A stretch of DNA of 64,000 bases from Sandaracinus amylolyticus (GCF_000737325.1 NZ_CP011125.1:7688001-7752000); one strand, 5' to 3'; shown: positions 16,577 through 38,250, counted from the first letter of the stretch. The notes: a model not told the origin generated them from the letters alone. Made by a program: numbers and translations.

Positions 16577-16582
16577 AGTCTA
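16577..16582 (-). promoter_or_regulatory. putative -10 box inside repeat edge
   Basis: TAGACT on the minus strand ends six bases before the lipoprotein ATG at 16570. The same six bases mark the edge of each 87-bp unit of the adjacent tandem repeat, so the repeat and the promoter share sequence. Confidence 0.5.
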
Positions 16583-16836
16583 TGCGGGAGTGCTCGCCCG
16601 CGCCGAGCCCGCACGGAAGCGTGCGGAAGCACGCGGACGGCAGGGATCGGAGTGGGCGAGCCGAGTCTACGCGGGAGTGCTCGCCCGCGCCGAGCCCGCA
16701 CGGAAGCGTGCGGAAGCACGCGGACGGCAGGGATCGGAGTGGGCGAGCCGAGTCTACGCGGGAGTGCTCGCCCGCGCCGAGCCCGCACGGAAGCGTGCGG
16801 AGCACGCGGACGGCAGGGATCGGAGTGGGCGAGCCG
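16577..16836. repeat. three 87-bp tandem repeats (3'-element family, locus A)
   Basis: Units begin with AGTCTA at 16577, 16664 and 16751, and the same edge reappears at 16837 where it forms the TAG stop of the carotenoid oxygenase gene. Units are nearly identical; the third lacks one base. Each carries a GCACGC/GCGTGC inverted repeat and shorter GCTCGCCC/GGGCGAGC arms. Read in the direction of the upstream gene, blocks CGGCTCGCC, CCGTCCGCGTGC, GCACGCTTCCGTGCGGG and CGAGCACTCC match three other intergenic loci in the window (21049-21182, 25429-25633, 38170-38250). Confidence 0.9.
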
Positions 16837-16839
16837 AGT

Positions 16840-18285
16840 CTAGCGCGTGGCCGAGCCCTCCACCCACACGCCGTGGAACGTCATCGGCGCGTGATCGCGC
16901 ATCCAACACCGCGCGACCGGGCCGTCGGACAGGCGCTGCGCGTCGAAGATCGCGAGGCACGTCGCGTCGCGCGAGGGCTCGTAGACCATGGTGAGCCCCC
17001 AGCCCTCGCCCTCCGCGCACGTCGCGTCGCGCGGCACGTAGACGAGCTCGCTCGGGCACGCGCCGCGCTCGAAGAGGAACACGTCGTCCGCGCCGCGCTC
17101 GAGCGCCACGCGCGCGACGCCGCGCCGGGCGCCCTTCGTCGTCGTCACGAACACGGTGCGATGACGCGCGCCCTCGCGCCGGGGATCGATCTCGGGGAAC
17201 TCGCACGGCGCGTCCCACACCGGCTCGCTCCGGAACGTCTTGCGCGCCGGGTCGATCGCGACGCGATGCAGGTACGCCTTGCCCCCGGTCTGACCGCTCG
17301 CGCGCAGCCCTTCGTAGCTGTCGAAGTCGGGCCACCGCGCGATGTGCAGCACGATCTCGCCGTCCTGCTCCCACGCGCCCGCGAAGTGCCACTGGAAGAA
17401 CGTCTCGACGCGGAAGCGCACGATCGCGCTGGGATCGTCGATCGGCACGACGATCACCTCGACTCCGTCCTCCGGCGTCCACCGGAAGATGTCGCTCGCG
17501 CCGCCGATCCCGAGCAGCGCCTTCACGAGCTGGAAACGCATCGGCGGCACCAGGAAGACGAGGTGCTTCTCGGTCGCCGCGAAGTCGTGCAGCAGCACGC
17601 CGTGCTCGAGCGGGATCTCGCCGAGCATCTTCGGCGCGCCGCGATCGGGCAGCACCGCGAGCTCGATCGCGTTCTTCGGCCCCCAGCGCATCCCGAAGCC
17701 GTAGATCGCCTCGCGCGCGTTCACGCGATGCGGGTGCGCGGTGAAGGAGCTCCCGAGCACGCCGAGATCGGTCTCGCCGATCGTGCTCAGATCGCGCGCG
17801 TCGATCTCGGTGGGCCACGACGACTCGACCAGCGCGAAGAGGCGCGACTGCCAGCGCATCAGCGCGGTGTTGCCGGTGTTCTTGCGGCGCCTCAGCAGCC
17901 CGTTCATCACGCGGCGCCACGGCGTCGCGCGCGACCCGTAGAGCGGCGCGCCGGCGCGCGTCTCCTCGCGATACTCCGCGCTCTCGATCACGCGCTTCGC
18001 CGCGAGCGCGCGCGCCGGCCCCTCGAGGCGCACCGAGCAGAGCGCGCCGTCCGCCTCGAACGAGTGCGCGACCTCGCGCCCGAACGAGTCGTAGAGCCCT
18101 GGCCCGACGCGATGGAGCGTGCCGCGCAGCCCGTCCGGGATGCGCCCCTCGATCTCCATCGGCTCCCAGCCGTGCTCGCGCCGCAAGCTGCGCATGTCGC
18201 CGCGAGGCGGCGGTGACTCGTGGTCGTCGTGCGCCCCCCGCACGACGCGATCGACCTGCGTCTCAGCACCCATGTCTGTGCCCAT
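16840..18285 (-). CDS. carotenoid oxygenase (RPE65/CCD family)
   Basis: 481 residues, usual for the family. The four iron-binding His residues are in place: His184 (FTAHPHRV), His233 (LLHDFAATEKH), His300 (FFQWHF) and His471 (MTFHGVWV). Family members cleave carotenoids, retinoid precursors or stilbene-type alkenes with O2 at a seven-bladed propeller active site. No carotenoid synthesis genes are in view, so the substrate is open. It overlaps by 23 bases the end of the GlcD-like gene (a start at 18273 would leave an 11-base overlap), so the two are translationally coupled. Its stop codon lies in the edge of the tandem repeat. Confidence 0.92.
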   Translation of the reverse strand: MGTDMGAETQVDRVVRGAHDDHESPPPRGDMRSLRREHGWEPMEIEGRIPDGLRGTLHRVGPGLYDSFGREVAHSFEADGALCSVRLEGPARALAAKRVIESAEYREETRAGAPLYGSRATPWRRVMNGLLRRRKNTGNTALMRWQSRLFALVESSWPTEIDARDLSTIGETDLGVLGSSFTAHPHRVNAREAIYGFGMRWGPKNAIELAVLPDRGAPKMLGEIPLEHGVLLHDFAATEKHLVFLVPPMRFQLVKALLGIGGASDIFRWTPEDGVEVIVVPIDDPSAIVRFRVETFFQWHFAGAWEQDGEIVLHIARWPDFDSYEGLRASGQTGGKAYLHRVAIDPARKTFRSEPVWDAPCEFPEIDPRREGARHRTVFVTTTKGARRGVARVALERGADDVFLFERGACPSELVYVPRDATCAEGEGWGLTMVYEPSRDATCLAIFDAQRLSDGPVARCWMRDHAPMTFHGVWVEGSATR

Positions 18286-19669
18286 CCCCCGGGAAGATCT
18301 TGCCAGGATTCAGGACGCCGCGGGGATCGAAGACGTCCTTCACGCGCCGCTGCAGCGCGATCAGGGGCTCGGGCTGCTCGAGCGGCAGGTACGGCGCCTT
18401 GAGCACGCCGATGCCGTGCTCGCCGCTGAGCGTCCCGCCGAGCGCGATCGTCGTCTCGAAGAGCTCGCGGATCGCCTGCTGCACCGCGGGCTCCTGCTCG
18501 GCGTGATCCCAGAGCAGGTTCACGTGCAGGTTGCCGTCGCCGGCATGGCCGTACGCGGGCATGCGGATGCCGCGGCGCGCTGCGATCTCGCGGCACGTCG
18601 TGATCAGCTCGGCGAGGCGACGCCGCGGCACCACGACGTCCTCGCTCAGCTTGAACCCCGCGCTGCGACGCAGCGCGCGCGACATGTCGCGCCGCACGCG
18701 CCAGAAGCGCTCGCGCTCGCTCGTCTCGGTCGCGACCAGCGGATCGAACGGCGACACGCTCACCAGCGCGTCACCGAGCCGCGCGAGCTCGCTCTCCACG
18801 GTCTCGCTCGTGCCCTCGAGCTCGATCACCAGCAGCGCCTTCGCCGCCTCGGGGATCGCGATCGCCGACGCGCCCGCGCGCAGGATCGCGAGCGTCTCCG
18901 CGTCGAGCAGCTCGATGCAGCGCGGCACCACGCGCGCGCTCAGGGCCGCGCTCACCGCGGGCGCGATCGCGTCCTCGCGATCGAGGAACGCGAGCACCGT
19001 GATCACGCGCTCCGCGAGCGGCGCGAGCCGCAGCACCGCGCGCGTGACGAACGCGAGCGTGCCCTCGCTGCCGACGATCAGCGACGTGAGGTCGTAGCCG
19101 GTCACGCCCTTCTTGGTGCGCCGACCGAGCGGCAGGATCGTGCCCTCCGCGGTCACGACCTCGAGCCCGAGCACCCAGTCGCGCGTCGAGCCGTGCTTGA
19201 ACGCGCGCGGCCCCGCCGCGTTCTCCGCGACGTTCCCGCCGATCGTGCACTGCTCCCAGGAGTTCGGATCGGGCCCCCAGAAGAGCCCCTCGCGCTCGAC
19301 CGCCTCGTAGAGCGCGCCGGTCACGAGCCCGGGCTCGACCACCGCGAGCGAGTCCACACGATCGATCTCGACGATGTCGCGCATGCGATCGCACGCGAGC
19401 ACGATCCCGCCGCGCACCGGCACCGCGCCGCCGGTGCGGCCGGTGCCCGCGCCCCGCGGCGTCACCGGCACTCCGTGCGCGCTCGCCTCGCGCATCACCA
19501 CCGCGATCTCCTGCGCACCGCGCGCGCGGATCACCGCGTCGGGGATCGCGCCCACCGCCTCGCTCTCGTCGCGCGCGTGCGCCGCGCACACGTCGGCGTC
19601 GGTGATCACGCGATCGTCGGGCAGCGCGCGCGCGATCGCGGCGAGACAGCGGTCGACGTTCGCGCGCAT
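18263..19669 (-). CDS. FAD-binding 2-hydroxyacid dehydrogenase (GlcD/D-lactate type)
   Basis: 468 residues. FAD-binding PCMH domain with TPRGAGTGRTGG (about 70-81) and GGNVAENAAGP; the FAD-oxidase C-terminal domain shows GHAGDGNLHVNLL and GTLSGEHGIG. This set is typical of the glycolate oxidase GlcD and D-lactate or D-2-hydroxyglutarate dehydrogenase family, which oxidise 2-hydroxyacids to 2-oxoacids. The electron acceptor subunits GlcE/GlcF are not nearby, so a single-subunit enzyme passing electrons to quinone or cytochrome is more likely. The ATG at 19669 fits the family start; longer frames upstream are Ser/Pro-rich and not conserved-looking. Confidence 0.9.
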   Translation of the reverse strand: MRANVDRCLAAIARALPDDRVITDADVCAAHARDESEAVGAIPDAVIRARGAQEIAVVMREASAHGVPVTPRGAGTGRTGGAVPVRGGIVLACDRMRDIVEIDRVDSLAVVEPGLVTGALYEAVEREGLFWGPDPNSWEQCTIGGNVAENAAGPRAFKHGSTRDWVLGLEVVTAEGTILPLGRRTKKGVTGYDLTSLIVGSEGTLAFVTRAVLRLAPLAERVITVLAFLDREDAIAPAVSAALSARVVPRCIELLDAETLAILRAGASAIAIPEAAKALLVIELEGTSETVESELARLGDALVSVSPFDPLVATETSERERFWRVRRDMSRALRRSAGFKLSEDVVVPRRRLAELITTCREIAARRGIRMPAYGHAGDGNLHVNLLWDHAEQEPAVQQAIRELFETTIALGGTLSGEHGIGVLKAPYLPLEQPEPLIALQRRVKDVFDPRGVLNPGKIFPGDGHRHGC

Positions 19670-19731
19670 CGGAGGGCGTTCTGGGCTCCTTCGTGATCCG
19701 CCGCAACCTTCCGCCTCCGAGCGCTCGCGGA

Positions 19732-19737
19732 TAGACT
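19732..19737 (+). promoter_or_regulatory. putative -10 box
   Basis: TAGACT ends eight bases before the lipoprotein ATG at 19746, with no Shine-Dalgarno sequence. Leaderless or near-leaderless start suggested. Confidence 0.45.
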
Positions 19738-19745
19738 GGCGCGCG

Positions 19746-21035
19746 ATGCGCTCGCTCCGATCGTCGGTGTCACTCCTCGTCGCGTTGGTGCTCGCCGGGG
19801 GGTGCGGCGACGACGACGTCCCGTCGGTCCCGACCGACGCAGGCCCTCGCGACGCGCAGGTGCGAGACGCGGCCGGCGAGGACGGCGGCGGCGACGCCGG
19901 CGACGAGGACGGCGGCGTGCTCGAGGACGGTGCGATGCCGCTCGACGGCGGCGACGCCGATGCCGGCGTCCTGCCGTGCACCGGCGACGAGCTCACGCTC
20001 GCGGACCTCTCGGAGGAGCGCAACGAGCGCGTCGCGCTGGCGGCCGGCGCGAGCACGTGGCTCGCGGCGTGGGTCGGTCGCGTCGACACGTTCACGGAGC
20101 TCCAGTGGACGATCGTGCCCGCCACCGGCGATGCGCCCGAGCCGCGATCGACGATGCTCCGCTCGCTGCTCGGAGGCGCGGCGGCCGCGCGGCGCGGAGA
20201 CGGGTTCGTCGCGGGCTACCAGGCGAACCCCGACGCGGGCTACGAGGTGTACGCGCTGCCGCTCGCGGCCGACGGCACGCCCACCGGCGCCGCGTGGCGC
20301 CTCACGACGCAGGCAGGCCGCGACGACCGCGTCGCGCTCGTCGCCAGCGACGGCGGGCTCGTCGCGTCGTGGACCGAGACCGCGCCCGGCGGTGCGTCGC
20401 GCGCGTTCCGCACGCGATGGTTCGACGCGACGGGCACGCCCCAGGGCGACGCGCGCACGCTGGCGAGCGGCGACGAGGTCCCGCTCGCGAGCGTGCTCGT
20501 GCCCGCCGAGAGCGGTCCGTACGCCGTGTGGCACCGCGAGCAGGGCACCGCGAGCCAGGTGGTCGCGGCCGCCCTCGACGCGCGCGGCGTCCCGCCCGCG
20601 GGCGGCGAGCGCGTGGTGAACGTCGAGCCGACCGCGAACGGCACGCTCGACGCGGTCACCGAGGAGGACGCCGCGGTCCTCGTGTTCGGCATCGTCGCGG
20701 GCGGCGGCGCGCCGCAGGTCCGCGTGCGCTCGATCGATCGCCTCGGGACGCTGGGGACCGAGCGCATCGTCGGCGCCGGCACCGAGCCCTCGATCGCGCG
20801 CTACGGCGGGACGTTCGCCGTCGCCTACCGCGCGCCCGGCGCCGGCGGCGCGACGCTGACGCTCGCCTTCCTCGACACCAGCCTTCAGCCGCGCGCGACC
20901 GTTCCGCTCGGCCCCGCGACCGCCGAGGGCTCGCTCGTGATGCGCGCGACCGACGACGGCCGGCTCGCCATCGCGCGCGTCGACGTGAGCGGCGGGCGCA
21001 CCCGCGTGCTCCTCACGCGCGTCCAGTGCGACTGA
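19746..21035 (+). CDS. surface lipoprotein, beta-propeller-like
   Basis: 429 residues. Lipobox LAGGC (Cys20), then an Asp/Gly/Ala-rich linker to about residue 75. The rest consists of repeated blocks of about 45-55 residues with Ala-Trp or Ser-Trp near the end of a strand (WLAAWVG, LVASWTE, YAVWHRE), the pattern of a beta-propeller. Many such proteins are found on myxobacterial surfaces; no catalytic motif is visible. Followed by a repeat element 14 bases after the stop. Confidence 0.75.
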   Translation: MRSLRSSVSLLVALVLAGGCGDDDVPSVPTDAGPRDAQVRDAAGEDGGGDAGDEDGGVLEDGAMPLDGGDADAGVLPCTGDELTLADLSEERNERVALAAGASTWLAAWVGRVDTFTELQWTIVPATGDAPEPRSTMLRSLLGGAAAARRGDGFVAGYQANPDAGYEVYALPLAADGTPTGAAWRLTTQAGRDDRVALVASDGGLVASWTETAPGGASRAFRTRWFDATGTPQGDARTLASGDEVPLASVLVPAESGPYAVWHREQGTASQVVAAALDARGVPPAGGERVVNVEPTANGTLDAVTEEDAAVLVFGIVAGGGAPQVRVRSIDRLGTLGTERIVGAGTEPSIARYGGTFAVAYRAPGAGGATLTLAFLDTSLQPRATVPLGPATAEGSLVMRATDDGRLAIARVDVSGGRTRVLLTRVQCD

Positions 21036-21048
21036 AGGCGCAGACCAC

Positions 21049-21182
21049 GGGCTCGCCCGCCGGGACGAGCACTCCGTAGGGAGTGAAAGATCGGCTCGCC
21101 CGCAGGTCCCTACCGTGCGCGCGCGTCGCGCGCTCCCGTCCGGGACCTGCGGGACGAGCACTCCGTGGGGGAGTGAAAAAAG
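21049..21182. repeat. 3'-element family, locus B (short plus full copy)
   Basis: A short copy (21049-21074: GGCTCGCC joined almost directly to CGAGCACTCC) is followed by a full copy (21092-21164). In the full copy the arms CGCAGGTCCC and GGGACCTGCG form a long stem around a GC-rich core. It starts 14 bases after the stop at 21035 and has the same orientation relative to the upstream gene as the other three loci. A run of five A bases follows the last GGGGGAGTG. Acts perhaps as a terminator. Confidence 0.8.
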
Positions 21183-21295
21183 TGCAGACTCTGCAACTTG
21201 GTGCGGGTGCGACCGCCACCACGCGCTCGGGATCGCGCGCGATCTCGGGATCCTCCATCGCCGGAACGTTCCTTGCTGAGCGGCATCGCCCGACC

Positions 21296-22330
21296 ATGCG
21301 TCAGCTGCTCGCGCTCGCCCTCGTGGGCACGCTCGCGTCCTCCCTGAGCGCCTGCGGCGACGATCGCCCGCCGGTCGTGCCGCAGGACGGAGGAGCGCGC
21401 GACGCGTCGCGCGGCGACGGCGGCGGCTCCGACCTCGACGCCGCGATCCCCGACGGCGGCGGCATGGACGGCGCGCTGCCCGACGGGGCGCTGCCCGACG
21501 ACGCGGGCACCCCCACCGACGCGCCGCCCGGCGACGCGATGAAGATGGACGCCGGTCCCGCCGAGCCCGACGCCGCCACCGACGGTGGCACGTGTACCGA
21601 TCTGTGCCCCTGCCCGCGTCCCGCGCCCGCCTGCACCGGCGACGCGACCTGCGCCGCTGGCGAGCGCTGCATCGAGGACGTCTGCGGCACCGCGCGATGT
21701 CACCCCGCCGGCGCGCCCTGCGGCGCGCTCGCCGACTGCCCGGCCGGCTCCGCGTGCGTCGGCGGCACGTGCCAGCGTCCCGTCGCGGGATGCGTCGACA
21801 GCCGCGAGTGTCCGGCCGGATTCGAGTGCGAGGGCGGCACCTGCGTCGATCGCCGCGTCCCGTGCGTCGAGGTCGAGGACTGCCCGCGCGGCTACGTCTG
21901 CCGCATCCCGACCAGCACGCTCGGCGGCGGCTTCTGCGCGCGCGTCCATCGCCCGTGCGCGAGCGACGCCGGGTGCGCCGACTTCCCGGGCGGGCGCTGC
22001 GTCGACGTCGACCTCGACGGCTCGCTCGAGTGCTCGATCCCGAGCGCCGCGTGCGCGACCAACGCCGACTGCGATCCCGGCACCGTCTGCACCGTGTTCC
22101 CGGTGAGCCGCGCCAGCGAGTGCACGCGCTACGGCGGGCTCTGCCGCACCGCCGCCGAGTGCTCCGACGAGACGCCCGCCGAGTGCGTCGACCTCTCGGG
22201 CCAGGGCCAGCCCGAGTGCGCGCGCCCCGCCGGCACCTGCGACTCGCCCTCCGACTGCCCGCCCCGCCAGGTCTGCGCGACGTTCGATCGCGAGTCGCCG
22301 CCGCGCTGCATCGCCGGCTCTGCCATGTGA
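21296..22330 (+). CDS. Cys-rich surface lipoprotein
   Basis: 344 residues. Lipobox LSAC (Cys20) and an 80-residue Asp/Gly/Pro linker (repeats of DGALPDG-type). The rest has about eight Cys-rich modules of the form C-x-x-x-x-x-C-P-x-G-x-x-C-x-x-G-x-C (for example DCPAGSACVGGTC and ECPAGFECEGGTC), an EGF-like disulfide pattern very common in myxobacterial secreted proteins. Probably surface exposed, possibly adhesive. The ATG at 21296 directly precedes the signal peptide. Only 14 bases separate it from the next gene, so they are likely co-transcribed. Confidence 0.8.
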   Translation: MRQLLALALVGTLASSLSACGDDRPPVVPQDGGARDASRGDGGGSDLDAAIPDGGGMDGALPDGALPDDAGTPTDAPPGDAMKMDAGPAEPDAATDGGTCTDLCPCPRPAPACTGDATCAAGERCIEDVCGTARCHPAGAPCGALADCPAGSACVGGTCQRPVAGCVDSRECPAGFECEGGTCVDRRVPCVEVEDCPRGYVCRIPTSTLGGGFCARVHRPCASDAGCADFPGGRCVDVDLDGSLECSIPSAACATNADCDPGTVCTVFPVSRASECTRYGGLCRTAAECSDETPAECVDLSGQGQPECARPAGTCDSPSDCPPRQVCATFDRESPPRCIAGSAM

Positions 22331-22344
22331 CCGAGGAGTCTCGC

Positions 22345-25300
22345 ATGCGCCTCCGCCGAACCCGCTTCGTCTCGTCCGCGCCAGCGCTCCCGCGCGCGTG
22401 GCTCGTCCTCGCCGCGCTCGCGGCCGTCGCGTGCGAGGCAGCCGATGGCGCGCCGACGCCGCCGCCCGGACCGGGGGGCGGAGGCGAGGTCGACGGCGGC
22501 CCGTCCAGCTGCGTGCGTCCCGACGAAGGCTGCCCGTGCGAGCCCGGCACCGAGCCCGTCGAGTGCTACCCCGAGCCGGTCGTCGTCGACGGCGAGCGCG
22601 TGTGCCTCGGCGCAGGCGAGCGCTACTGCCGCGACGGCGCGTGGACCGCGTGCGAGGTCGCGCCCTACGAGCGCACCCCCGGCGTCGTCACCGCGCCGCT
22701 GATCACCGGCCCCACGCAGTGCAACGCGTGCGACCCGCGCTGCTTCGAGTACGTCGATCAGCCCACGACGCCGGGCGACGTCACGTCGGGCAACTCGTCG
22801 GGCGTCGTGCTCCGCCCCGGCGGCACCGGCGTCGAGCTCCCCCCGAGCGGCACGTACATGGGCAGCGGCGATCGCGACGGCGACGGCGTGCCCGACGACT
22901 TCGACGCGTTCCCGACCGACCCCACGCGCGACGGCTTCACCGAGGAAGGCGGCATCTTCCACCTCCTGCCCGAGGGCGCGACCGAGGGCCCCGATCCGAT
23001 CTCGATCAGCACCACGATCAACGCCGCCGACGTCTACGTCCTGATGGACGCCACCGCGTCGATGGCGGGCGAGATCTCGACGCTCCGCAACGCGCTCACG
23101 AGCGGCAACTACCTCGGCGGCACGCTCTATCCGTCGCGCGCGGTCAGCGGCAACGAGGCGATGGGCAGCGCGTACGACTTCGGCACCGATCCGCTGCCCG
23201 GCGTGTATCCCGTCACCGGAACCACCGCGGGCATGGCGAACGATCACGCCGCCGGGTGCTCGGGCGGCGGCACCGCCGCCGACGCGGTGTTCCGCTTCAC
23301 GCTCACGTCCGAGCAGACGGTGATGATCGAGACGCTCGAGCCGCTCGGCTACGACACCGTCCTCTCGCTGCGCAATTCGACGTTCGGCGAGGTCCAGTGC
23401 GTCGACGACGTCGGCGGCAGCCGTCGCTCGCAGATCACGCGCACGCTCGCCGCGGGCACCTACTACATCCTGCTCGAGGGCTGGAACGGCGGCGCCGGCA
23501 CCTACGCGATGAACGTGCAGTTCCAGGGCTCGTCGGCGTGCCGCGGCATCCTGGGCGCGATCAACTGCATCATCCCGAACGCGCAATTCGGCGTCGGCTA
23601 CTTCCGCGAGTACCCGCTCACGCCGTACGGCTCGAGCGAGAACCCGGTCTACGTGCACGTGCAGGACGTCACGTCGGACTTCACCGCGGTGCAGAACGCG
23701 GTCAACGGCCTCGTCACCCAGGGCAACGTCGACTGGCCCGAGTCCATGGCGCAGGGCCTCTACTCGACGGTCACGGGCAACGGCCTCGGCACGTACTATC
23801 CCGCGCGCGGGTCGAACCCGTCGTTCTCGGCGTGCCCCGCGGGGCGCTGGGGCTACGGCTGCTTCCGCACCGGCGCGATCCCGATCGTGATCGGCTTCAG
23901 CGACGCGCCGATGCACGAGGGACCCGATCGCCAGTTCGACTACGCGTTCGATCAGCGCTGGCCCGCCGCGACCACGGTGTCGCTCGAGCAGGGCGGCTCG
24001 GCCTCGATGCGCTACCGCAACGACACCCAGGCGACGGCCTGGGACATGGGCGACATCACGGCGACGGTCGGCTCGAACCAGCAGGTCGTGTACGCGGGCC
24101 GCACCCGCTGGACCCAGGGCAGCTCGACCTACCGCCTCGGCAACGACTACGACACCGCCGTCGTCGGCTGCAACGGCTCGGGCGAGGACGCGGTGTTCCG
24201 CTTCACGCTGACCCAGCGCCGCCGCGTGCAGCTCACCACGTACAGCCAGTTCAGCAGCTACGACACGGTGCTCTCGTTGTTCCGCAGCTCGGTCACCGCC
24301 GCGAACCGCGTCACCTGCAGCGACGACATCTACTTCAGCGGCACCGCGTCGATGATCACGACGGTGCTCGACCCCGGCACCTACTACGTCGTCGTCGACG
24401 GCTGGGACGGCGCGGACGGCAGCTACTACCTCTCGGTCAACGGCCGCGTGCCGACCGACGGCTCGCCGCCCTACCCGAGCGCCCAGGCGCCGGCGTACTG
24501 GGAGCACACCTCGCACGCGCTGCGCGCGCGCAACGTGAAGTTCATCGGCATCCGCTCGTGCAGCGACGGCGCGAGCGGCGACGAGGGCACGTTCTGCCCC
24601 GACCTGCTGCAGGACCTGCGCGACGTCGGCATCGCGACCGGCAGCGTCGACGACTCCGGCGAGCCCTTCGTCTACACGATCTCGAACAGCGGCTCCGGCC
24701 TCGACAGCACGGTCGTGCAGGCCGTGCAGCGCCTCGCGAACTACTCGCGCATGGACGTGAGCGCGCGCGCCACCGACGACCCCGCGACGGCGTTCGACGA
24801 GCGCAATTTCGTGCAGTCGATCACCATCAACAACTGCCCCGCGTCGCGCTGCACCGGCCCGCGCACCGGCTCGATGTGCGGGCAGTGCCTGCCCGGTAGC
24901 GACGTCGGGTTCGACGTCGTCTTCCACAACACCGGCGTCGCGCCGACCGGCGTGCCGCGCACCGCGGTCGCGCAGGTGTTCGACTTCACGCTCGAGCTCG
25001 TCGGCGACGGCACGTACGTGCTCGACAGCGTCCCGGTGCGCATCGTCGTCCCGCCGGTGCGCGCCGAGTACCCGGCGAGCGGCACCTACTGGCGCGACTA
25101 CGACTCGACCGCGCGCTGCGCCGACAACGAGCGCCCCGACTGGGGCTCGCTCGCCTGGACCGCGACGACGCCGGCGGGCACGAGCATCGAGTTCCAGCTG
25201 CAGGCGGCAGACGATCCGGCCGGCATCCCCGGCGCGCCCCGCGCGAGCATCCTGGTGCCGGGCTCGACGTCGCCCCGCCCGATCCTGCCGGCGCTGCGCG

Positions 25301-25428
25301 CGCGCGGATACGCCGACGGCCTGCGCCACCTGCGCGTGACCGCCGTGCTCTCGTCGGACGCGCTGCGCTCCTCGACGCCCAACCTCGAGCGGATGGCCGT
25401 CGACTACACGTGCGTGCCCGCGGAGTGA
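22345..25428 (+). CDS. large lipoprotein with VWA domain split by PPC-like domains
   Basis: 1027 residues. Lipobox VAC (Cys30), a Cys-rich segment (55-135), then a calcium-binding thrombospondin-3-like stretch (DRDGDGVPDDFDAF, 177-190). A VWA domain begins at about 228 with a variant MIDAS (YVLMDATASM, 232-241). Two PPC-like domains interrupt it: about 280-395 and 575-690, each with AVFRFTL, DTVLSL and GTYY(I/V) motifs. Further VWA pieces lie at 396-540 and after 715 (NVKFIGIRSC). A Cys-rich beta region ends the protein. GAGGAG lies upstream of the ATG. Probably a surface adhesin; its TGA lies in the edge of the following repeat. Confidence 0.85.
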   Translation: MRLRRTRFVSSAPALPRAWLVLAALAAVACEAADGAPTPPPGPGGGGEVDGGPSSCVRPDEGCPCEPGTEPVECYPEPVVVDGERVCLGAGERYCRDGAWTACEVAPYERTPGVVTAPLITGPTQCNACDPRCFEYVDQPTTPGDVTSGNSSGVVLRPGGTGVELPPSGTYMGSGDRDGDGVPDDFDAFPTDPTRDGFTEEGGIFHLLPEGATEGPDPISISTTINAADVYVLMDATASMAGEISTLRNALTSGNYLGGTLYPSRAVSGNEAMGSAYDFGTDPLPGVYPVTGTTAGMANDHAAGCSGGGTAADAVFRFTLTSEQTVMIETLEPLGYDTVLSLRNSTFGEVQCVDDVGGSRRSQITRTLAAGTYYILLEGWNGGAGTYAMNVQFQGSSACRGILGAINCIIPNAQFGVGYFREYPLTPYGSSENPVYVHVQDVTSDFTAVQNAVNGLVTQGNVDWPESMAQGLYSTVTGNGLGTYYPARGSNPSFSACPAGRWGYGCFRTGAIPIVIGFSDAPMHEGPDRQFDYAFDQRWPAATTVSLEQGGSASMRYRNDTQATAWDMGDITATVGSNQQVVYAGRTRWTQGSSTYRLGNDYDTAVVGCNGSGEDAVFRFTLTQRRRVQLTTYSQFSSYDTVLSLFRSSVTAANRVTCSDDIYFSGTASMITTVLDPGTYYVVVDGWDGADGSYYLSVNGRVPTDGSPPYPSAQAPAYWEHTSHALRARNVKFIGIRSCSDGASGDEGTFCPDLLQDLRDVGIATGSVDDSGEPFVYTISNSGSGLDSTVVQAVQRLANYSRMDVSARATDDPATAFDERNFVQSITINNCPASRCTGPRTGSMCGQCLPGSDVGFDVVFHNTGVAPTGVPRTAVAQVFDFTLELVGDGTYVLDSVPVRIVVPPVRAEYPASGTYWRDYDSTARCADNERPDWGSLAWTATTPAGTSIEFQLQAADDPAGIPGAPRASILVPGSTSPRPILPALRARGYADGLRHLRVTAVLSSDALRSSTPNLERMAVDYTCVPAE

Positions 25429-25633
25429 GCGGCACTCCGAATCGGCTCGCCGGCGCAGCGCCCTCCCGTCCGCGTGCGACGCACGCTCCCGTGCGGGCCC
25501 TTCGCCACCGAGCACTCCAGCTGGAGTGAGCGACACTCCGAATCGGCTCGCCGGCGCAGCGCCCTCCCGTCCGCGTGCGACGCACGCTCCCGTGCGGGCC
25601 CTTCGCCACCGAGCACTCCAGCTGGAGTGAGCT
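25429..25633. repeat. 3'-element family, locus C (two 101-bp copies)
   Basis: Two near-identical copies 101 bases apart (CACTCCGAATCGG at 25433 and 25534). Each contains CGGCTCGCC, CCGTCCGCGTGC, GCACGCTCCCGTGCGGG and CGAGCACTCC in order and ends with the 16-base palindrome CACTCCAGCTGGAGTG (25513-25528 and 25614-25629). The copy edge GGAGTGAGCG also includes the TGA of the preceding gene. The rest of the gap to 25740 has a TAGGAT box at 25692 as a possible promoter for the next gene. Confidence 0.9.
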
Positions 25634-25740
25634 GATCGACACACCGGGCGCGGCGGCCTCGCCCGACGATCGACACGAGTGGTCTTCGGGCTAGGATTCG
25701 GCCCCGCCAACGCGCCGAGGGCGCGATCCTGCGGCTCCCC

Positions 25741-28421: not shown

Positions 28422-28465
28422 GCACGAGCTCGGTGGCCGCGCTGAGGACGATCGCGAGCGGCGTC

Positions 28466-29983: not shown

Positions 29984-30733
29984 ATGGCGCTCAAGAGTCT
30001 GACGAATGCCCAGATCGTGGAGCTGACCGCGGAGCTGCTCGCGCCAGGGGGCAAACGACGCAAGGCGCTCGAAGCCGTGCGCGGCGCCGAGGGTCCGCTC
30101 GGACAGCTGGAGCGCGCGTACGACGGAATGATCGCCGCGCAGCCTCCGCCGAACACCGCGCTCGCGAAGCTCGTGACCGAGATGACGTCGCTCGACGCGC
30201 GACACGACGCGTGCGTGCGCGCGCTGCTTTATCGCCTCGACGGCGAGATCGTGATCGCCGAGACCGACGAGGCCCGCGTCTCGCTCGGGCTGCTGCGCGA
30301 CGCGCTCTTCCCGACCGGCGCCGCGATCGTGCAGCGCAGCTATGTGGAAGAGGCCGGCGAGGGCAAGCTGCGCGAGGCACGCGTCACGCCGGCGATGCGC
30401 CGCACGCTCGCGAAGCTGAAGTTCCTCGACGGACGCACCGGCGAGGAGCTCTTCGCGCTGCTGCAGTCGAGCGCGCGTGCGCTCGGCGAGGGCGAGGTGA
30501 AGCGCGCGGCGCTCGGCGCCGAGGGCCAGCTCGTCCTCAAGAGCGGCGCGGCGCGCAACCAGTGGATCCGCGTGGTCAACTCGGTCGCCGCCTACCTCGC
30601 TGCCGAGGGCATCGACGAAGAGCCGATCCTCGGCGCGATCCGCGCGGCCGAGGCCGCCGCGGAGCGCGGCGCGAGCAGCGACACCGATCCCGGTGTCACG
30701 CCCGCGCCGGGCGGCGACACGCCCGCGAGCTGA
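29984..30733 (+). CDS. hypothetical cytosolic protein
   Basis: 249 residues, mainly helical, no signal peptide or membrane helix. A purine-rich GGGGGAA site lies just before the ATG. The last 30 residues are a Gly/Pro/Thr tail. Charged amphipathic helices suggest a soluble, perhaps oligomeric protein. No family recognised. It ends before a short GC hairpin facing a convergent lipoprotein gene. Confidence 0.75.
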   Translation: MALKSLTNAQIVELTAELLAPGGKRRKALEAVRGAEGPLGQLERAYDGMIAAQPPPNTALAKLVTEMTSLDARHDACVRALLYRLDGEIVIAETDEARVSLGLLRDALFPTGAAIVQRSYVEEAGEGKLREARVTPAMRRTLAKLKFLDGRTGEELFALLQSSARALGEGEVKRAALGAEGQLVLKSGAARNQWIRVVNSVAAYLAAEGIDEEPILGAIRAAEAAAERGASSDTDPGVTPAPGGDTPAS

Positions 30734-30735
30734 TC

Positions 30736-30750
30736 CGCGCGCTTCGCGCG
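30736..30750. terminator. short GC hairpin between convergent genes
   Basis: CGCGCG, loop CTT, CGCGCG, placed three bases after the stop at 30733 and before the convergent stop at 30767. No T-run on the plus strand beyond TCCTCTC. Confidence 0.4.
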
Positions 30751-30766
30751 CGTCCTCTCGATCACG

Positions 30767-31096
30767 TCACTCGCGCGGGCAGCCGGTGCAGCACGCCTCG
30801 AGGCAGGCGACGACCTCGCCTTCGCGGGTCGCTTCGCAGATCGGGGTCGCGGCCGCCACCGGGTCACCGGTCTCGCGGATCGTGCAGCCGGTGCAGTCGG
30901 TGGCCGCGAGCTCCTGCGAGCAGCGGTGCTCCGACTCTCCGGGCGTGTGCTGTGTGGTCGTCGTGTCGTCCGACGCGGCCTGCTCGCTGCCGGTGGTGTC
31001 GGATGTCGATGCGGGCTCGCTCGAGGACGATCCGCCGCACGCGGAGAGAACGACGACCGAGAGCGCGAGGAGCGACGAGACGAAGGAACGCGACAT
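30767..31096 (-). CDS. small Cys-rich lipoprotein
   Basis: 109 residues. Lipobox LSAC (Cys20), a Ser/Thr/Asp linker of about 40 residues, then eight Cys residues in the last 50 (including CTGCTIRE and CLEACCTGC), suggesting a compact disulfide-bonded domain. AGGAGG lies nine bases before the ATG at 31096, which decides the start. Unknown function; located next to a sensor kinase gene transcribed in the same direction upstream. Confidence 0.75.
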   Translation of the reverse strand: MSRSFVSSLLALSVVVLSACGGSSSSEPASTSDTTGSEQAASDDTTTTQHTPGESEHRCSQELAATDCTGCTIRETGDPVAAATPICEATREGEVVACLEACCTGCPRE

Positions 31097-31170
31097 GGAT
31101 GGAGCCTCCTGTGCTCGCCATCGACGCGCGAGCACGCGGGATGTTCTCTCATGTCGCGACGATCGCGCGC

Positions 31171-33114: not shown

Positions 33115-33120
33115 ACGACG

Positions 33121-33126
33121 CAACTA
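33121..33126 (-). promoter_or_regulatory. putative -10 box of histidine kinase gene
   Basis: TAGTTG on the minus strand, six bases before GTG 33114. It shares a 65-base divergent region with the ttcA promoter. Confidence 0.4.
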
Positions 33127-33176
33127 GGCACGGCGGGAGCCGTCCACCGCCCGTCGACGCCGAGGGCGCGCGGTGT

Positions 33177-33182
33177 TAGTCC
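33177..33182 (+). promoter_or_regulatory. putative -10 box of ttcA
   Basis: TAGTCC ends eight bases before the ATG at 33191. No Shine-Dalgarno sequence lies between them. An ATG-like frame start at 33173 would lie upstream of this box and is therefore not used. Confidence 0.4.
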
Positions 33183-33190
33183 GACGCGTC

Positions 33191-34048
33191 ATGGAAGAGC
33201 GACGGCGCGTCCTCGAGAAGCACCTCTATCGCACGCTGAAGACGACGTGCGAGCGCTGGGAGCTGCTGCGTCCGGGCGAGCGCGTGATGGTCGCGATCAG
33301 CGGCGGCAAGGACAGCTACACGCTGCTCACGCTGCTCGACAAGCTGGTGCCGCGCCTGCCGTTCTCGGTCGAGCTCGTCGCGGTGCACCTCGATCAGGCG
33401 CAGCCGGGCTACGACGGCGCGCCGCTCGAGGCGTGGCTCGCGCAGCGGGGCAAGGCGTACGAGATCCTGCGCGAGGACACGTACTCGGAGGTGCTCGCGC
33501 GGACGGCGCCGGGCGGCACGTACTGCACGGTGTGCTCGCGCCTGCGCCGTGGGATCCTCTACAGCGCGGCGGAGCGTCTCGGGTGCAGCGCGATCGCGCT
33601 CGGGCACCACCGCGACGACGCGCTCGAGACGTTCCTGATGAACCTGTTCTTCGCGGGGAAGATGCAGGCGATGCCCGCGAGCTACGTGACCGACGACGGG
33701 CGCTTCCGGGTGATCCGCCCGCTGATCGAGTGCGACGAGGCGCGCATCGCGGAGTACGCGGCGCTCGAGGCGTTCCCGATCCTGCCGTGCAACCTGTGCG
33801 GCTCGCAGGAGGGCCTGCAGCGCGAGAAGATGAGCGCGCTGCTGGCGCAGCTCGAGGCGCAGCACCCCGACGTGCGCAGCGTGATGATGCGCGCGCTGGG
33901 CAACGTGCGTCCCACGCACCTGCTCGATCCCGAGGTGCTCGAGGCGTGGCGCGCGCGCCCCGAGCACGTGCGCCCGGAGCGCGCGACCGAGACGCGCGAG
34001 GCGCGCTACGAAGCGCGCGCGGTGCGGAAGCTGCCGGTCGTCGAGTAG
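33191..34048 (+). CDS. ttcA: tRNA 2-thiocytidine synthetase TtcA
   Basis: 285 residues. It thiolates cytidine 32 of some tRNAs using ATP and a [4Fe-4S] cluster. P-loop SGGKDS at 37-42; the cluster cysteines CTVC (Cys112, Cys115) and the third conserved Cys in CNLC (Cys200, Cys203); GHHRDDALETFLMN is the family's central motif. The C-terminal 30 residues are Arg/Glu-rich and variable. Its last 43 bases overlap, in the opposite direction, the end of the MFS gene. Confidence 0.93.
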   Translation: MEERRRVLEKHLYRTLKTTCERWELLRPGERVMVAISGGKDSYTLLTLLDKLVPRLPFSVELVAVHLDQAQPGYDGAPLEAWLAQRGKAYEILREDTYSEVLARTAPGGTYCTVCSRLRRGILYSAAERLGCSAIALGHHRDDALETFLMNLFFAGKMQAMPASYVTDDGRFRVIRPLIECDEARIAEYAALEAFPILPCNLCGSQEGLQREKMSALLAQLEAQHPDVRSVMMRALGNVRPTHLLDPEVLEAWRARPEHVRPERATETREARYEARAVRKLPVVE

Positions 34049-35379
34049 AGCGCGAGGCACGCCGCGGGCGCGAGCGAGAACGTCGCGAAGAGCGCGAGCG
34101 CGGCGCGGGAGACGCCGTCGGGCGTGGCGAGCCCGGCGCCGTTCGCGATCACGCCCGCGAGCGCGGCGCCGAGCGCGGTCGCGAAGAGCTGCACGGTGGT
34201 GATCGACGCCGACGCGAGCTCGGGCTCGTCGGCGGGCGCGACCTGGAGCACGCGGGTGAGCACGTGCGGCCACGCGATGCCGACGCCGACTCCGAGCGTC
34301 GCCAGCGCGGCGGCGATCGGCAGGACGAGCGCGCCGTCGTCGGCGCGCGCGGGCACGAGCCAAGCGCACGCGAGGGTGGCGACGAGCACGATCCCCGGCG
34401 CGACCCGCAGCGCGCGCTCGATGGTCCGCGGATCGCGCGCGCTCGAGCCGACGAGCGAGCCGAGCGTCCACCCGCCCGCCATCAGCGCGGCGAGCGCGCC
34501 CGCGACGAGCGGCGAGCGCCCGTGCAGCACCTGGAGGAAGAGCGGCGCGAAGATCTCGGTGCTGGTGACGGTGATCGCGAGGAGCGAGAGCACCGCGTAG
34601 AGCTTCACCAGCGGCGCGACGAGCCGCGGGAAGACGCGCGACGAGGCACGCCGCTCGACGACGAAGAGCGCGATCACGAGCGCCACCGCGAGCGCGACGA
34701 GCGGTGCGCTCGAGCGCGCGACGCTCGCCCCGGACAGCGCGAGCACCGACGCCGCGAGCAGCGCGAGCTGGGCCCACGCGATCGGCGGCGCGACGCTCGT
34801 CTCGTTGCGCCCCGGGAGCGCGCGCAGCGCGAGCACGACGAAGAGCGCCGTCGCCGGGACGAGCGATCCGAACGCGGCGCGCCACGCACCGAGCTCGGCG
34901 AGCACCCCGCCGATCGCCGGGCCCACGAGCGTCGCGACGCCCCACATCCCCGAGACGAGCGCCATCGCGCGCGGCCAGAGACGCTCGTCGTAGAGGGTGC
35001 GGATCATCCCGTAGGGCAGCGCGACGAGGAGCCCGCCGCCGAGCCCCTGCACCACGCGGCCCGCGAGCATCGCGTCCATCGACGTCGCGCTCGCGGAGAT
35101 CCACGCGCCGGCACCGAACACGATGGACGCCGCGACGTAGGCGCGACGCGCGCCGAGCCGCGCGAGCAAGCGCGCCGAGAGCGCCGACGCGACGATCGAC
35201 GCGACCACGAAGAGCGTGGTGCTCCACGCGTAGCGCTCGAGCCCGCCGATCTCCGCGACGACCGAGGGCAGGATCGTGGTCGCGACGTAGAGGTCGATCG
35301 CGTGCAGCGCGACCCCACCGACGAGCACGAGCGCGCGCAGCGCGCCCGCGCCCGCGAAGAGCTCCCTCCAGCCCGCCAC
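34006..35379 (-). CDS. MFS drug-type transporter
   Basis: 457 residues with about 12-14 membrane helices. Motif GRVVQGLGGG and the helix pattern fit the DHA2-type multidrug exporters of the major facilitator superfamily. The start is a GTG at 35379 with GAGG five bases upstream, eight bases after the sigma factor stop, so it is the third gene of the AhpD-sigma-MFS operon. This suggests export of a compound linked to the stress sensed by that sigma factor. The end overlaps the ttcA end by 43 bases. Confidence 0.88.
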   Translation of the reverse strand: MAGWRELFAGAGALRALVLVGGVALHAIDLYVATTILPSVVAEIGGLERYAWSTTLFVVASIVASALSARLLARLGARRAYVAASIVFGAGAWISASATSMDAMLAGRVVQGLGGGLLVALPYGMIRTLYDERLWPRAMALVSGMWGVATLVGPAIGGVLAELGAWRAAFGSLVPATALFVVLALRALPGRNETSVAPPIAWAQLALLAASVLALSGASVARSSAPLVALAVALVIALFVVERRASSRVFPRLVAPLVKLYAVLSLLAITVTSTEIFAPLFLQVLHGRSPLVAGALAALMAGGWTLGSLVGSSARDPRTIERALRVAPGIVLVATLACAWLVPARADDGALVLPIAAALATLGVGVGIAWPHVLTRVLQVAPADEPELASASITTVQLFATALGAALAGVIANGAGLATPDGVSRAALALFATFSLAPAACLALYSTTGSFRTARAS

Positions 35380-35386
35380 GTCGGCC

Positions 35387-36235
35387 TCAGGACACGAGCG
35401 CGGCGAGCTTGTCGGGGTTGCGCACGATGAACACCTGCGTGACCGCGCCCGCCTCGTCGTAGGCGAACGTGAGCGAGGTGGTGATCGTGCCGTTCGCGCG
35501 CAGGACCACGCCGCGCCCACCGTTGAGCTCGGTCGCGATCCACTCGTAGTCGCGCCACCACGCGGCCAGCTGGCGGACGAACGCGAGCACGTCCTGCTTG
35601 CCGTGGAGCGGCTCGCGGATCGCGGAGACCTTGCCGCCGCCGTCGGCGCGCAGCTCGACGTCGTCGGCGAGCAGCGCGGAGAGGCGATCGAGCTCGCCCG
35701 AGGTGATCGCGACCTCGAACGCGGCGAGCAGCTCGTCCTGCCGCTCGCGCGGCGTCACGTGGCGCACCTTCGCCTGCTCGACGTGGGTGCGCGCGCGCGA
35801 GACGAGCTTGCGGCACGCGGTCTCGTTGATCTCGAGGGTGCGCGCGGTCTCGGCGTAGGAGACGTCGAACACCTCGTGCAGGAGGTACGCGGCGCGCTCC
35901 TTCGGCGTGAGCCGCTCGAGCACGAGCAGGAACGCGGTGCCGAGCGACGACGCGAGCGACGCGTCGGTGGGCTCGTCCGCGGGCGTGTGGAGCGGCTCGG
36001 GCAGCCACGGTCCGACGTAGTCCACGCGCGAGCGGTGCGCGGAGCGCAGCATGTCGATGCAGCGCCGGGTGCACGTCGCGGTGAGCCACGCCGCGGGGCT
36101 CTCGACGTCGTGCGCGCCGAGCCACTTCACGTACGTGTCCTGCACCGCGTCCTCGGCGTCGGCGCGCGAGCCGAGGATGCGGTACGCGAGCCCGAGCAGC
36201 ATCGGGCGCGCCTGGGTGAACGGATCGTCGGTCAT
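35387..36235 (-). CDS. ECF41-type RNA polymerase sigma factor
   Basis: 282 residues. Sigma region 2 (LGLAYRILGSRADAEDAVQDTYVKW), region 4 (LTPKERAAYLLHEVFDVSYAETA) and a C-terminal SnoaL-like domain. Three hallmarks of group ECF41 are visible: WLPEP in the linker, DGGGK in the SnoaL-like domain and NPDKL near the C-terminus. In that group the fused domain controls sigma activity in place of an anti-sigma factor, and a carboxymuconolactone decarboxylase-like gene is the usual target. The upstream gene is exactly that, with TGATG overlap. Confidence 0.93.
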   Translation of the reverse strand: MTDDPFTQARPMLLGLAYRILGSRADAEDAVQDTYVKWLGAHDVESPAAWLTATCTRRCIDMLRSAHRSRVDYVGPWLPEPLHTPADEPTDASLASSLGTAFLLVLERLTPKERAAYLLHEVFDVSYAETARTLEINETACRKLVSRARTHVEQAKVRHVTPRERQDELLAAFEVAITSGELDRLSALLADDVELRADGGGKVSAIREPLHGKQDVLAFVRQLAAWWRDYEWIATELNGGRGVVLRANGTITTSLTFAYDEAGAVTQVFIVRNPDKLAALVS

Positions 36236-36657
36236 CAGTGCCTCGCGACCTGGAATCGGTTCCAGAGGTTGATCATGGCGACGGTCGCGGTGAGCGCCGC
36301 GATCTCGGGCTCGGTGAAGCACGCGCGCAGCTGCGCGCGCAGCGCGGCGTAGTCGGTGTCGGGGTGCAGGTGGGTGAGCGCCTCGGTCCACGCCAGCGCG
36401 GCGCGCTCCCGCTCGCCGAAGTCGGTGGAGTGGCGCCACACCACGAGGCGATCGAGGCGCTCGTTCGTCTCGCCGTCCTCGCGCGCCTCGCGGGTGTGCA
36501 TGCGGACGCAGAACGCGCACCCGTTGATCTGCGATGCGCGGAGCGTCACGAGGTGGTGCAGCTTGCGCTCGAGCGGGCGCTCGTCGATCGCGTGGTGCAC
36601 CGCGCCGAGCGCCGAGAGGACGGCCGGGATCTGCTGTTCGTAACGGATGTCGCTCAT
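36235..36657 (-). CDS. AhpD-like carboxymuconolactone decarboxylase family protein
   Basis: 140 residues. Alkylhydroperoxidase AhpD core with the CxxC-x3-H motif (Cys47, Cys50, His54 in CAFCVRMH). Single-domain proteins of this type can reduce peroxides through the Cys pair; the true substrate is usually unknown. First gene of an operon with the ECF41 sigma factor, whose regulon typically includes such a protein. GGAG lies nine bases before the ATG. Confidence 0.92.
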   Translation of the reverse strand: MSDIRYEQQIPAVLSALGAVHHAIDERPLERKLHHLVTLRASQINGCAFCVRMHTREAREDGETNERLDRLVVWRHSTDFGERERAALAWTEALTHLHPDTDYAALRAQLRACFTEPEIAALTATVAMINLWNRFQVARH

Positions 36658-36681
36658 GTCGTGTCTCTCCTTCGAGGAGAT

Positions 36682-36707
36682 GACGATCGACGTGGCGCGT
36701 TGTGACG
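36682..36707 (-). promoter_or_regulatory. ECF41-type promoter of ahpD-like operon
   Basis: On the minus strand CGTCACA (36707-36701) and CGTC (36685-36682) lie 15 bases apart, 24 bases before the ATG at 36657. The published ECF41 consensus, as I recall it, is TGTCACA and CGTC, so only the first base differs. It implies that the sigma factor drives its own operon. Confidence 0.65.
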
Positions 36708-36719
36708 CGGGCTGCTCGA

Positions 36720-37232
36720 TCAGATGTCGAACCGCGTCCCGGTCGGGTACGTCAGCTCGAACGGGTCGCCCTGACAGCCCGCGAGCACCGGCACGAAGCG
36801 CAGCGTGATGTCGCTGCGCTCCGGGATCTCGCGGCCGAACGGGTTGCCGACGGTCTGGTCGATGACGCCGTCGTTGCCGACCTCGTCGCCGTTGGTCCCG
36901 TCGTCGCGCAGGGTCAGGCCGAGGTCGACGACGCGCACCTCGTCGGCGCCCGCGTCGGCGGGCGCGATCAGCGCGAAGAGCTGCACGCTCGCCGCGCCCG
37001 GGCGCATGTCGCACGCCTCGAGCTCGACGTGCACCGTCGCGCGCGCGGCGGGATCGAGCGGCCCGATGCGCTCGGGCGTCACCATCGCGCTCGCGATCCC
37101 CGTGTACTCGTAGGGATCGCACTCGAGCACACGCTCGCCGGCGCAGCTCGCGGCGAGGTCGTCCGGCGCGCCGTCACCGTCGCACGCCGCCAGGGCGAGG
37201 CCCGCGCACAGCAGGAGACACGTTCGCATCAT
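36720..37232 (-). CDS. lipoprotein, unknown function
   Basis: 170 residues. Lipobox LAAC (Cys17). The mature part has four Cys residues and looks like an immunoglobulin-like beta-sandwich; no known domain. The start overlaps the pssA stop by one base (TGATG), so it is coupled to pssA. It could be an envelope protein made together with phospholipid synthesis, but no direct link is visible. Confidence 0.75.
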   Translation of the reverse strand: MMRTCLLLCAGLALAACDGDGAPDDLAASCAGERVLECDPYEYTGIASAMVTPERIGPLDPAARATVHVELEACDMRPGAASVQLFALIAPADAGADEVRVVDLGLTLRDDGTNGDEVGNDGVIDQTVGNPFGREIPERSDITLRFVPVLAGCQGDPFELTYPTGTRFDI

Positions 37233-38071
37233 CACGGAACGCTGGGGCGCTGCTTCTCTTCGGCGGGCTCGACCGTCGCCGCGGGCGAGCCGCGACGTCC
37301 CGCCAGGCGCGCGGCCTTGCGCGAGATCTCGAGCACCGCCTCGAGCACCGCGATCGCGACGTAGCCCACGATGAGCCACACCAGCGCGAACGACGGGTGG
37401 TAGGTCACCGCGATCACCGCGCTCGACGCGATCGTGAGGCCGACGAAGATCACGCTGCGCCAGCCGAGCTTGATGTCCTTGAACGAGCGGAACGGGACCG
37501 TGCTCACCATGAAGAACGAGAGCGCGATCACGACGCCGAGCATCACCTCGGGCGCGCTCTGGAGCGAGCCGGTGACCGCGAAGTTCGCGACGATGATCGA
37601 GACCAGCGCGCCGGCCGCGCCGGGGATCGGCAGGCCCATGATGTACTTGCCCGGCTTCTTCGGCGCGCCGCTCGGGCTGGTCGCCATCACGTTGAAGCGC
37701 GCGAGGCGGATGGCGCCGCACGCGACGTACGCGAAGCTGGCGATGAGGCCGCCGACGCCGAGCGTGTGGAGCGACCAGCGGTAGACGAGGATCGCGGGCG
37801 CGATGCCGAACGAGACGACGTCGGCGAGCGAGTCGATCTGCACGCCGAACGCGCTCTGCGTCTTGGTCAGGCGCGCGACGCGGCCGTCGATCACGTCGAA
37901 GAACATCGCGAACACGATGAGGAGCGCCGCGCGGTAGAAGTCCTCCGCGCTGGTCTCGCCCGAGCCGTTCGCGGTGGTGCACGCGACGATCGCGTAGAAG
38001 CCGCAGAAGATGCTGGAGAGCGTGAAGAGGTTCGGGAGGATGAAGAGCGTCTTCCTCAGATCGAAACGCAT
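37232..38071 (-). CDS. pssA: CDP-diacylglycerol-serine O-phosphatidyltransferase
   Basis: 279 residues with about eight membrane helices. It joins serine to CDP-diacylglycerol, giving phosphatidylserine, the precursor of phosphatidylethanolamine. The CDP-alcohol phosphotransferase signature is complete: Asp59, Asp62, Gly63, Ala66, Arg67, Gly76, Asp80, Asp84. The ATG at 38071 has GGGGAGG just upstream, better than one nine codons earlier. A phosphatidylserine decarboxylase gene is not adjacent here. Related phosphatidylglycerophosphate synthases share the motif, but the N-terminal LPNLFTLSSIFCGFYAI favours PssA. Confidence 0.92.
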   Translation of the reverse strand: MRFDLRKTLFILPNLFTLSSIFCGFYAIVACTTANGSGETSAEDFYRAALLIVFAMFFDVIDGRVARLTKTQSAFGVQIDSLADVVSFGIAPAILVYRWSLHTLGVGGLIASFAYVACGAIRLARFNVMATSPSGAPKKPGKYIMGLPIPGAAGALVSIIVANFAVTGSLQSAPEVMLGVVIALSFFMVSTVPFRSFKDIKLGWRSVIFVGLTIASSAVIAVTYHPSFALVWLIVGYVAIAVLEAVLEISRKAARLAGRRGSPAATVEPAEEKQRPSVP

Positions 38072-38169
38072 GGCCCTCCCCTGCTTCCCGTCACGCACGA
38101 AACGCGGCCCAGTCTACGCGCAAAGCGCGAAGAATGTCCCGAGGGTGACGACGCGCAAGGCGGCTCGGT

Positions 38170-38250
38170 CCAGCTGGAGTCTCGCTGGCGGAGGGGCCGC
38201 ACGGGAGCGTGTCGCGCACGCGGACGGGAGCGCCCTGTGCCGGCGAGCCG
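38170..38250. repeat. 3'-element family, locus D
   Basis: One copy, read on the minus strand: CGGCTCGCC (38250-38242), CCCGTCCGCGTGC, ACGCTCCCGTGCGG, CGAGACTCC, and a final CCAGCTGG. It begins 13 bases after the stop of the gene at 38264, the same spacing as at loci B and C, and has the same orientation relative to that gene. It lies between that gene and pssA. Confidence 0.85.

Follow-up and report, generated by a model that had tools for sequence, protein, structure and literature searches.

A miniature hairpin repeat behind stop codons of Sandaracinus amylolyticus, very probably a mobile element that inserts at gene ends

In a window of 64,000 nucleotides (the whole stretch analysed, positions 7688001-7752000 of the single-contig, 10,327,335-bp genome of Sandaracinus amylolyticus, hereafter G000), four intergenic loci, a to d, carry hairpin-forming repeats just behind stop codons and raise the question whether such a repeat is a conserved 3'-end signal or a sequence that moves. 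A preliminary description, made from the sequence of the window, had found four loci with common ordered blocks and had taken them for a lineage-specific 3'-end element acting in termination or mRNA stability, or as a REP-like unit. The four loci are all present with these blocks, and a blastn search of the own genome, with one copy as the query, gave matches outside the window with E values down to 8e-31, a likeness well beyond chance; the count of eight copies stands when the truncated copy at 21049 is included and falls otherwise. The genome-wide covariance search recommended there, performed with a model built from 25 copies, revealed a far larger family, with at least 150 matches in the own genome and at least 116 in a second Sandaracinus genome (G002). 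From the study of these loci, most of them picked by model score, we propose that the repeat is very probably a non-autonomous miniature mobile hairpin inserting at gene ends, and not a conserved 3'-end signal.

The comparison of the two species carries this proposal. Positions 7.568-8.032 Mb of the own genome and 10.30-10.70 Mb of G002 are collinear (inverted) with ~90% identity, and the element is absent from G002 at loci a, b and c and present at locus d. When 42 own loci were matched to G002, 24 were without a detectable element there and 18 carried one; reciprocally, G002 has loci whose counterparts in the own genome carry no element. Where both species possess it, the number of copies per array is not the same (3 vs 1, 4 vs 2, 1 vs 4), and at several shared single loci internal parts are deleted in one of the species. 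These data argue against a host element under selection at the 3' end, be it a terminator, a stabiliser of mRNA or a modulator of translation termination, as does the presence of some copies in tight gene junctions (4174687, 7792393), and the conserved, sense-acting role in termination or stability first suggested for the repeat does not agree with them. Among the base pairs of shared copies, 309 are unchanged, 2 compensatory, 7 one-sided and none broken, counts that are weak either way, the folds coming from the same two sequences. At one gene junction (G000:C1:5056458) and its G002 orthologue the elements lie in opposite orientation, by inversion or by independent insertion.

At the cleanest junctions the filled site reads host-T-element-T-host and the empty site host-T-host, T being a target of ~5-12 bp, as in GGCGAATGACTGGAAA-element-GACTGGAAATGCG versus the empty GGATGACTGGAAATGCG, and in GGGCCTGAGAG-element-GGGCTGAGAGCAAG versus the empty GGGCCTGAGAGCAAG. 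The duplications found at junctions are GACTGGAAA, AAAAAGAA, GGAGTGAGC, CTGAGAG, AAGGACTGAG, GATGCGAAAATC, TAGACT, CGATCA, CAGCT and TGATC, and mostly T includes the stop codon or overlaps with it, the exceptions being the A-rich spacer sites AAAAAGAA and GATGCGAAAATC. Where, as is usual, the stop codon is part of the duplication, the host gene's reading frame stays closed by means of the left copy. The stop codons noticed earlier in the repeat edge at two window loci belong to such target duplications, TAGACT at locus a and GGAGTGAGC at locus c. The direct-repeat score between flanks of the same locus was 6.10, versus 5.37 +/- 0.10 for shuffled flanks (the top of 200 shuffles reaching 5.76, tandem loci included).

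Several points weigh against mobility as the explanation: (i) of the sites counted as empty in the G002 comparison, at least four (7602483, 7838308, 9658042, 10309520) contain what is left of a decayed copy, and the spacers of some others are rearranged, so that losses have occurred besides gains and 24 of 42 is not a tally of clean insertions; (ii) in a comparison of two species, an empty site may reflect precise deletion as well as the lack of an insertion; (iii) the duplication length varies and many single loci of subfamily II, one of two subfamilies, are without any duplication, unlike the standard product of a DNA transposase; (iv) the gene ends are predictions of a simple codon-bias caller and are not curated; (v) the total in the own genome is an estimate, since 150 is a lower bound, extrapolation from 19 evenly spaced 20-kb samples giving ~190 loci (95% range 76-392) and ~350 copies; and (vi) neither a mobilising enzyme nor an autonomous partner came to light. 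The clear deletion remnants at several sites would also be in agreement with ancestral elements lost at differing loci by deletion between direct repeats, with little or no recent mobility. The cleanest empty sites, however, are precise junctions with one target copy and occur in both directions, and a copy is also found on the 209,732-bp replicon of G002, at a locus 100% identical to Sandaracinus plasmid records; we therefore consider ancestral loss very doubtful.

The element is ~85-110 bp long and its body is a long imperfect hairpin. It comprises an outer stem GCTCG(C)/(G)CGAGC, a middle stem that is variable yet co-varying, and an inner 6-bp hairpin, GCGTGC/GCACGC or GCGCGC/GCGCGC, between near-invariant C-rich strands; these strands and the constant 3' edge, ACTCC, are near-fixed across copies. 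Subfamily I (88 nt) has the GCGTGC/GCACGC inner hairpin and subfamily II (84 nt) the GCGCGC/GCGCGC one. The stem arms co-vary in both subfamilies, the mean duplex energy of matched arms being -21.4 for subfamily I (best of 2000 permutations, -20.3) and -19.9 for subfamily II (best of 2000 permutations, -19.2). A copy's own arms pair better with one another than with those of other copies, indicating that the hairpin is kept across the family through paired differences, a trait that would also suit a host element under selection. Direct tandem arrays of 2-5 copies occur at about one third of the loci. At the tip of the hairpin, about half of the subfamily II copies have on the bottom strand GCGAAGC, an unusually stable DNA mini-hairpin, and GNA loops also predominate in subfamily I; such tips would fit a single-stranded DNA intermediate.

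The position of the element follows the stop codon, be it TGA, TAG or TAA. The location just past a stop, described for the four window loci, holds genome-wide: at 80 of 101 loci, 11-20 nt separate the first stem base from a stop codon, the usual distance being 13-14 nt for antisense (right-edge) loci and 15-18 nt for sense (left-edge) loci. Among random intergenic points, 7.6% have a stop no more than 12 nt away and 13.9% no more than 25 nt away. Copies lying equally inside genes or in both orientations had been considered as contrary outcomes. All 102 own loci lie outside genes, and few of them separate divergent genes (7 of 102 loci vs 221 of 647 spacers in the background, p=1e-9). Both orientations do occur: the common sense orientation observed at loci a to d does not extend to the genome, where orientation relative to the gene depends on the subfamily, with 20 sense and 4 antisense loci for subfamily I and 5 and 28, respectively, for subfamily II (own loci with only one adjacent stop, p=4e-7). 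The stops beside the element (107 TGA, 10 TAG, 2 TAA) are distributed like those of the genome (1473/140/15).

A pure TGA-motif target was rejected, TAG and TAA stops not being depleted beside the element; their normal share argues against a pure sequence motif. Of the CTGAG occurrences in element-free spacers, 58% coincide with true stops, so that a loose CTGAG-like preference combined with selection could explain part of the pattern. On the basis of TAG and TAA at genome frequency, of the stop usually included in the duplicated target and of the orientation differing by subfamily, one could also imagine an insertion directed to stop codons as such, guided by the termination of translation or by the 3' end of the mRNA instead of a DNA motif, possibly with an RNA intermediate. 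We give this idea a low probability; if true, it would describe a mobile element of bacteria able to read the ends of genes. The spacing of the stem is explained by an insertion at the stop together with the short flank that belongs to the element, and the clearing of a terminating ribosome by the stem may result from this or may act as a filter in selection.

A stem base just beyond the terminating ribosome would be in agreement with a host element under selection, and a part of the E. coli REPs, located within 15 nt of a stop codon, can stall ribosomes and is reported to lower translation (PMC12306157). Concerning termination, no T-run of at least 4 follows the stem within 14 nt in the sense direction at any locus, which gives no support to a sense-acting terminator, and in antisense the stem is followed by CGAT, often with further T. 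Subfamily II beside a stop in antisense, its usual orientation, has this CGAT with a T-run of at least 3 at 15 of 27 loci and of at least 4 at 8 of 27 (3.5% and 0.7%, respectively, of intergenic 14-mers), so it could end transcription of the gene that it follows; judged by these runs, a terminator effect on the neighbour gene is possible. Subfamily I is mostly in the orientation without a T-run (at least 4 at 0 of 21 loci), and, taken together with the orthologous loci without a detectable element, this leads us to regard a selected host signal as unlikely. As a mobile element, the hairpin may be transcribed as a 3' untranslated region, and single mRNAs may incidentally be terminated or degraded differently through its presence.

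The family is a new, lineage-specific, small and very probably mobile hairpin resembling known small mobile repeats of other bacteria. The covariance model gave no match in the third genome of the genus nor in 35 further relatives, and a second model, run over 290 genomes of the class, added one match, in a distant metagenome-assembled genome (G139, contig 593, L247:69-151, locus of 1.65 kb). A search of window positions 15500-39500 against Rfam gave no match up to E=1, no sequence similar to the element was found among phage records, and an exact-pattern scan of a wider genome collection, from which close relatives are possibly absent, was without a match. The lineage-specific, REP-like and undescribed character first assigned to the repeat is thus retained: it occurs in two of the three Sandaracinus genomes, with one isolated copy in the distant assembly, has no Rfam match and is intergenic, hairpin-forming and stop-proximal. 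In G139, which belongs to another family, the right edge of the copy is beside the TGA stop of a predicted gene, through horizontal transfer or contamination.

A high copy number, an intergenic location, an imperfect palindrome, the proximity of stops and two subfamilies are also traits of a REP/BIME family moved by a RAYT (TnpA_REP, a Y1 HUH transposase), with which the element shares the extragenic palindrome. It is, however, about twice as long, its arrays are direct and not alternating, target duplications are present, and PF01797 (RAYT, Y1 transposase) was found in none of G000, G001 and G002, the control search being positive in E. coli and four other genomes; mobilisation by a RAYT is extremely improbable. 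The IS4-type DDE transposase PF01609 was rejected as the mover: it has four near-identical matches in the own genome and none in G002, which is full of elements, making it a poor candidate. The four matches (G000:C1 10081, 149447, 609479 and 10320671) have an identical score. In the ~1.6 Mb of genome read, we noticed no element whose two ends form a split pair.

Retron-type reverse transcriptases (RTs) are encoded in both genomes, one of them of type XIII, and the own genome also encodes several RTs resembling those of group II introns. The myxobacterium Nannocystis exedens carries the Ne160 repeats, dispersed hairpins resembling multicopy single-stranded DNA (msDNA), for which retrotransposition was proposed (PMC6868368). 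These observations, together with the variable duplication lengths and left ends, would fit a retro-element, that is, a hairpin RNA or msDNA copied in trans by an RT and inserted at gene ends with variable duplications. The likeness to Ne160 concerns dispersed hairpin repeats in a myxobacterium; the Sandaracinus element differs in being unlike the retron regions of its own genus, at the two RT loci compared. The inferred msr-msd of the type XIII retron and the region upstream of a second RT have no similarity to it, which speaks against an origin from these two retron loci, and neither a tail nor a consistent 5' truncation was seen. A retro-element is, in our opinion, very unlikely. The type XIII retron-like RT (474/468 aa; L086:980-1680, L260) has ~300 nt upstream with a long predicted hairpin, a region (near-)identical between the two species despite ~10% genome divergence. 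One retron RT (G000:C1 4490277) is ~2 kb from a four-copy element array (4492880-4493236) and another RT (8769110) ~5 kb from an element, both possibly by chance. Eight RT matches of near-equal score are found in the own genome (L257 and seven others, e.g., 1463274, 9737454, 10316101), none of that score in G002; in the single one examined, Rfam recognises domains of a group II intron.

By its anatomy, the element appears closest, as a kind, to the YPAL-type miniature insertions, with a resemblance to MIRU and REP as well. YPAL copies are often located a short distance past stop codons, and their targets in many cases overlap terminators. YPAL/RU-2 of Yersinia (De Gregorio et al. 2006) is a 168-bp non-coding mobile hairpin with internal inverted repeats, not A+T-rich and without TA termini, with target duplications of 3-26 bp, demonstrated empty and filled sites and a possible influence on upstream transcripts (PMC2229807). 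The likeness, one of description with no claim of homology, concerns presence or absence at orthologous sites, variable duplications and internal inverted repeats; the Sandaracinus element differs by its shorter length, a duplication usually including the stop, a tight stop spacing, subfamilies of opposite orientation and common direct tandem arrays. MIRU (Supply et al. 1997) are short direct tandem repeats of variable number, inserted at TGA stops with small duplications; by this description, and not by sequence, they resemble the element in stop-codon insertion and tandem copies, and they differ from it in that they reportedly lie in operon junctions and carry overlapping open reading frames. 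ERIC, NEMIS/Correia and QMITE2-like miniature inverted-repeat transposable elements (MITEs) are likewise small non-autonomous stem-loop elements, QMITE2 being mainly in 3' untranslated regions (PMC10969869), but as a rule they are rich in A+T and bear inverted repeats at their termini, and their target duplications are TA or insertion sequence-like. The fixed-length duplication of MITEs derived from insertion sequences is not seen here, where the length varies between clean sites.

A mobile hairpin of this type could operate in several steps: (i) a trans-acting enzyme would recognise the folded hairpin; (ii) the hairpin would be inserted by a staggered break at or near a stop codon; (iii) the stop codon would be duplicated, the reading frame staying closed; (iv) selection against gene damage would sharpen the stop-codon pattern; and (v) the inserted copies would form arrays, then decay by internal deletion. 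To duplicate the stop and sit behind it would be a way for a selfish sequence to spread in a compact, gene-dense genome of 72% GC without breaking genes, and a hairpin close behind a stop codon, however conserved it may look, is not necessarily a host signal. The clean empty/filled allele pairs make the targeting and the choice of orientation testable, as well as the effect of a hairpin 13-18 nt behind the stop on translation or transcription termination and on mRNA decay.

In the window, each of the four loci sits behind a called gene, in its sense direction (Table 1).

Table 1. Element loci, copies, target duplications and adjoining genes in the window
Feature	Position	Strand	Evidence or comparison
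Locus a, three ~87-bp copies	16577-16842	-	
Locus a copy 1, subfamily I, immediately behind the gene's TAG stop	16753..16840	-	covariance model (CM), 86.5 bits
Locus a copy 2, tandem	16666..16754	-	CM 81.8 bits
Locus a copy 3, tandem	16579..16667	-	CM 83.4 bits
Locus a TAGACT, target duplication, gene side, includes TAG stop	16837..16842	-	G002 empty site ACGCGATAGACTGATCCG
Locus a TAGACT, target duplication, distal copy	16577..16582	-	junction comparison
Locus b, one truncated and one full copy	21049-21172	+	
Locus b copy 1, remnant with internal deletion (GGCTCGCC..GACGAGCACTCC)	21049..21076	+	
Locus b copy 2, full subfamily II copy; site without element in G002	21088..21172	+	CM 72.7 bits
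Locus c, two 101-bp units	25422-25632	+	
Locus c copy 1, subfamily I, ~11 nt past TGA of gene 22345-25428(+)	25439..25526	+	CM 98.5 bits
Locus c copy 2, tandem	25540..25627	+	CM 98.5 bits
Locus c GGAGTGAGC, target duplication, gene side, includes TGA stop	25422..25430	+	G002 empty site GCCGAGTGAGCTGACGACAC
Locus c GGAGTGAGC, target duplication, distal copy	25624..25632	+	
Locus d, single subfamily I-like copy behind stop of gene 38264-39055(-); in G002 too, 87% identity	38168..38254	-	CM 86 bits
Gene upstream of locus a, end at 16840	16840..18285	-	codon-bias gene caller
Gene upstream of locus b, end at 21035	19767..21035	+	codon-bias gene caller
Gene upstream of locus c, end at 25428	22345..25428	+	codon-bias gene caller
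Gene upstream of locus d, end at 38264	38264..39055	-	codon-bias gene caller

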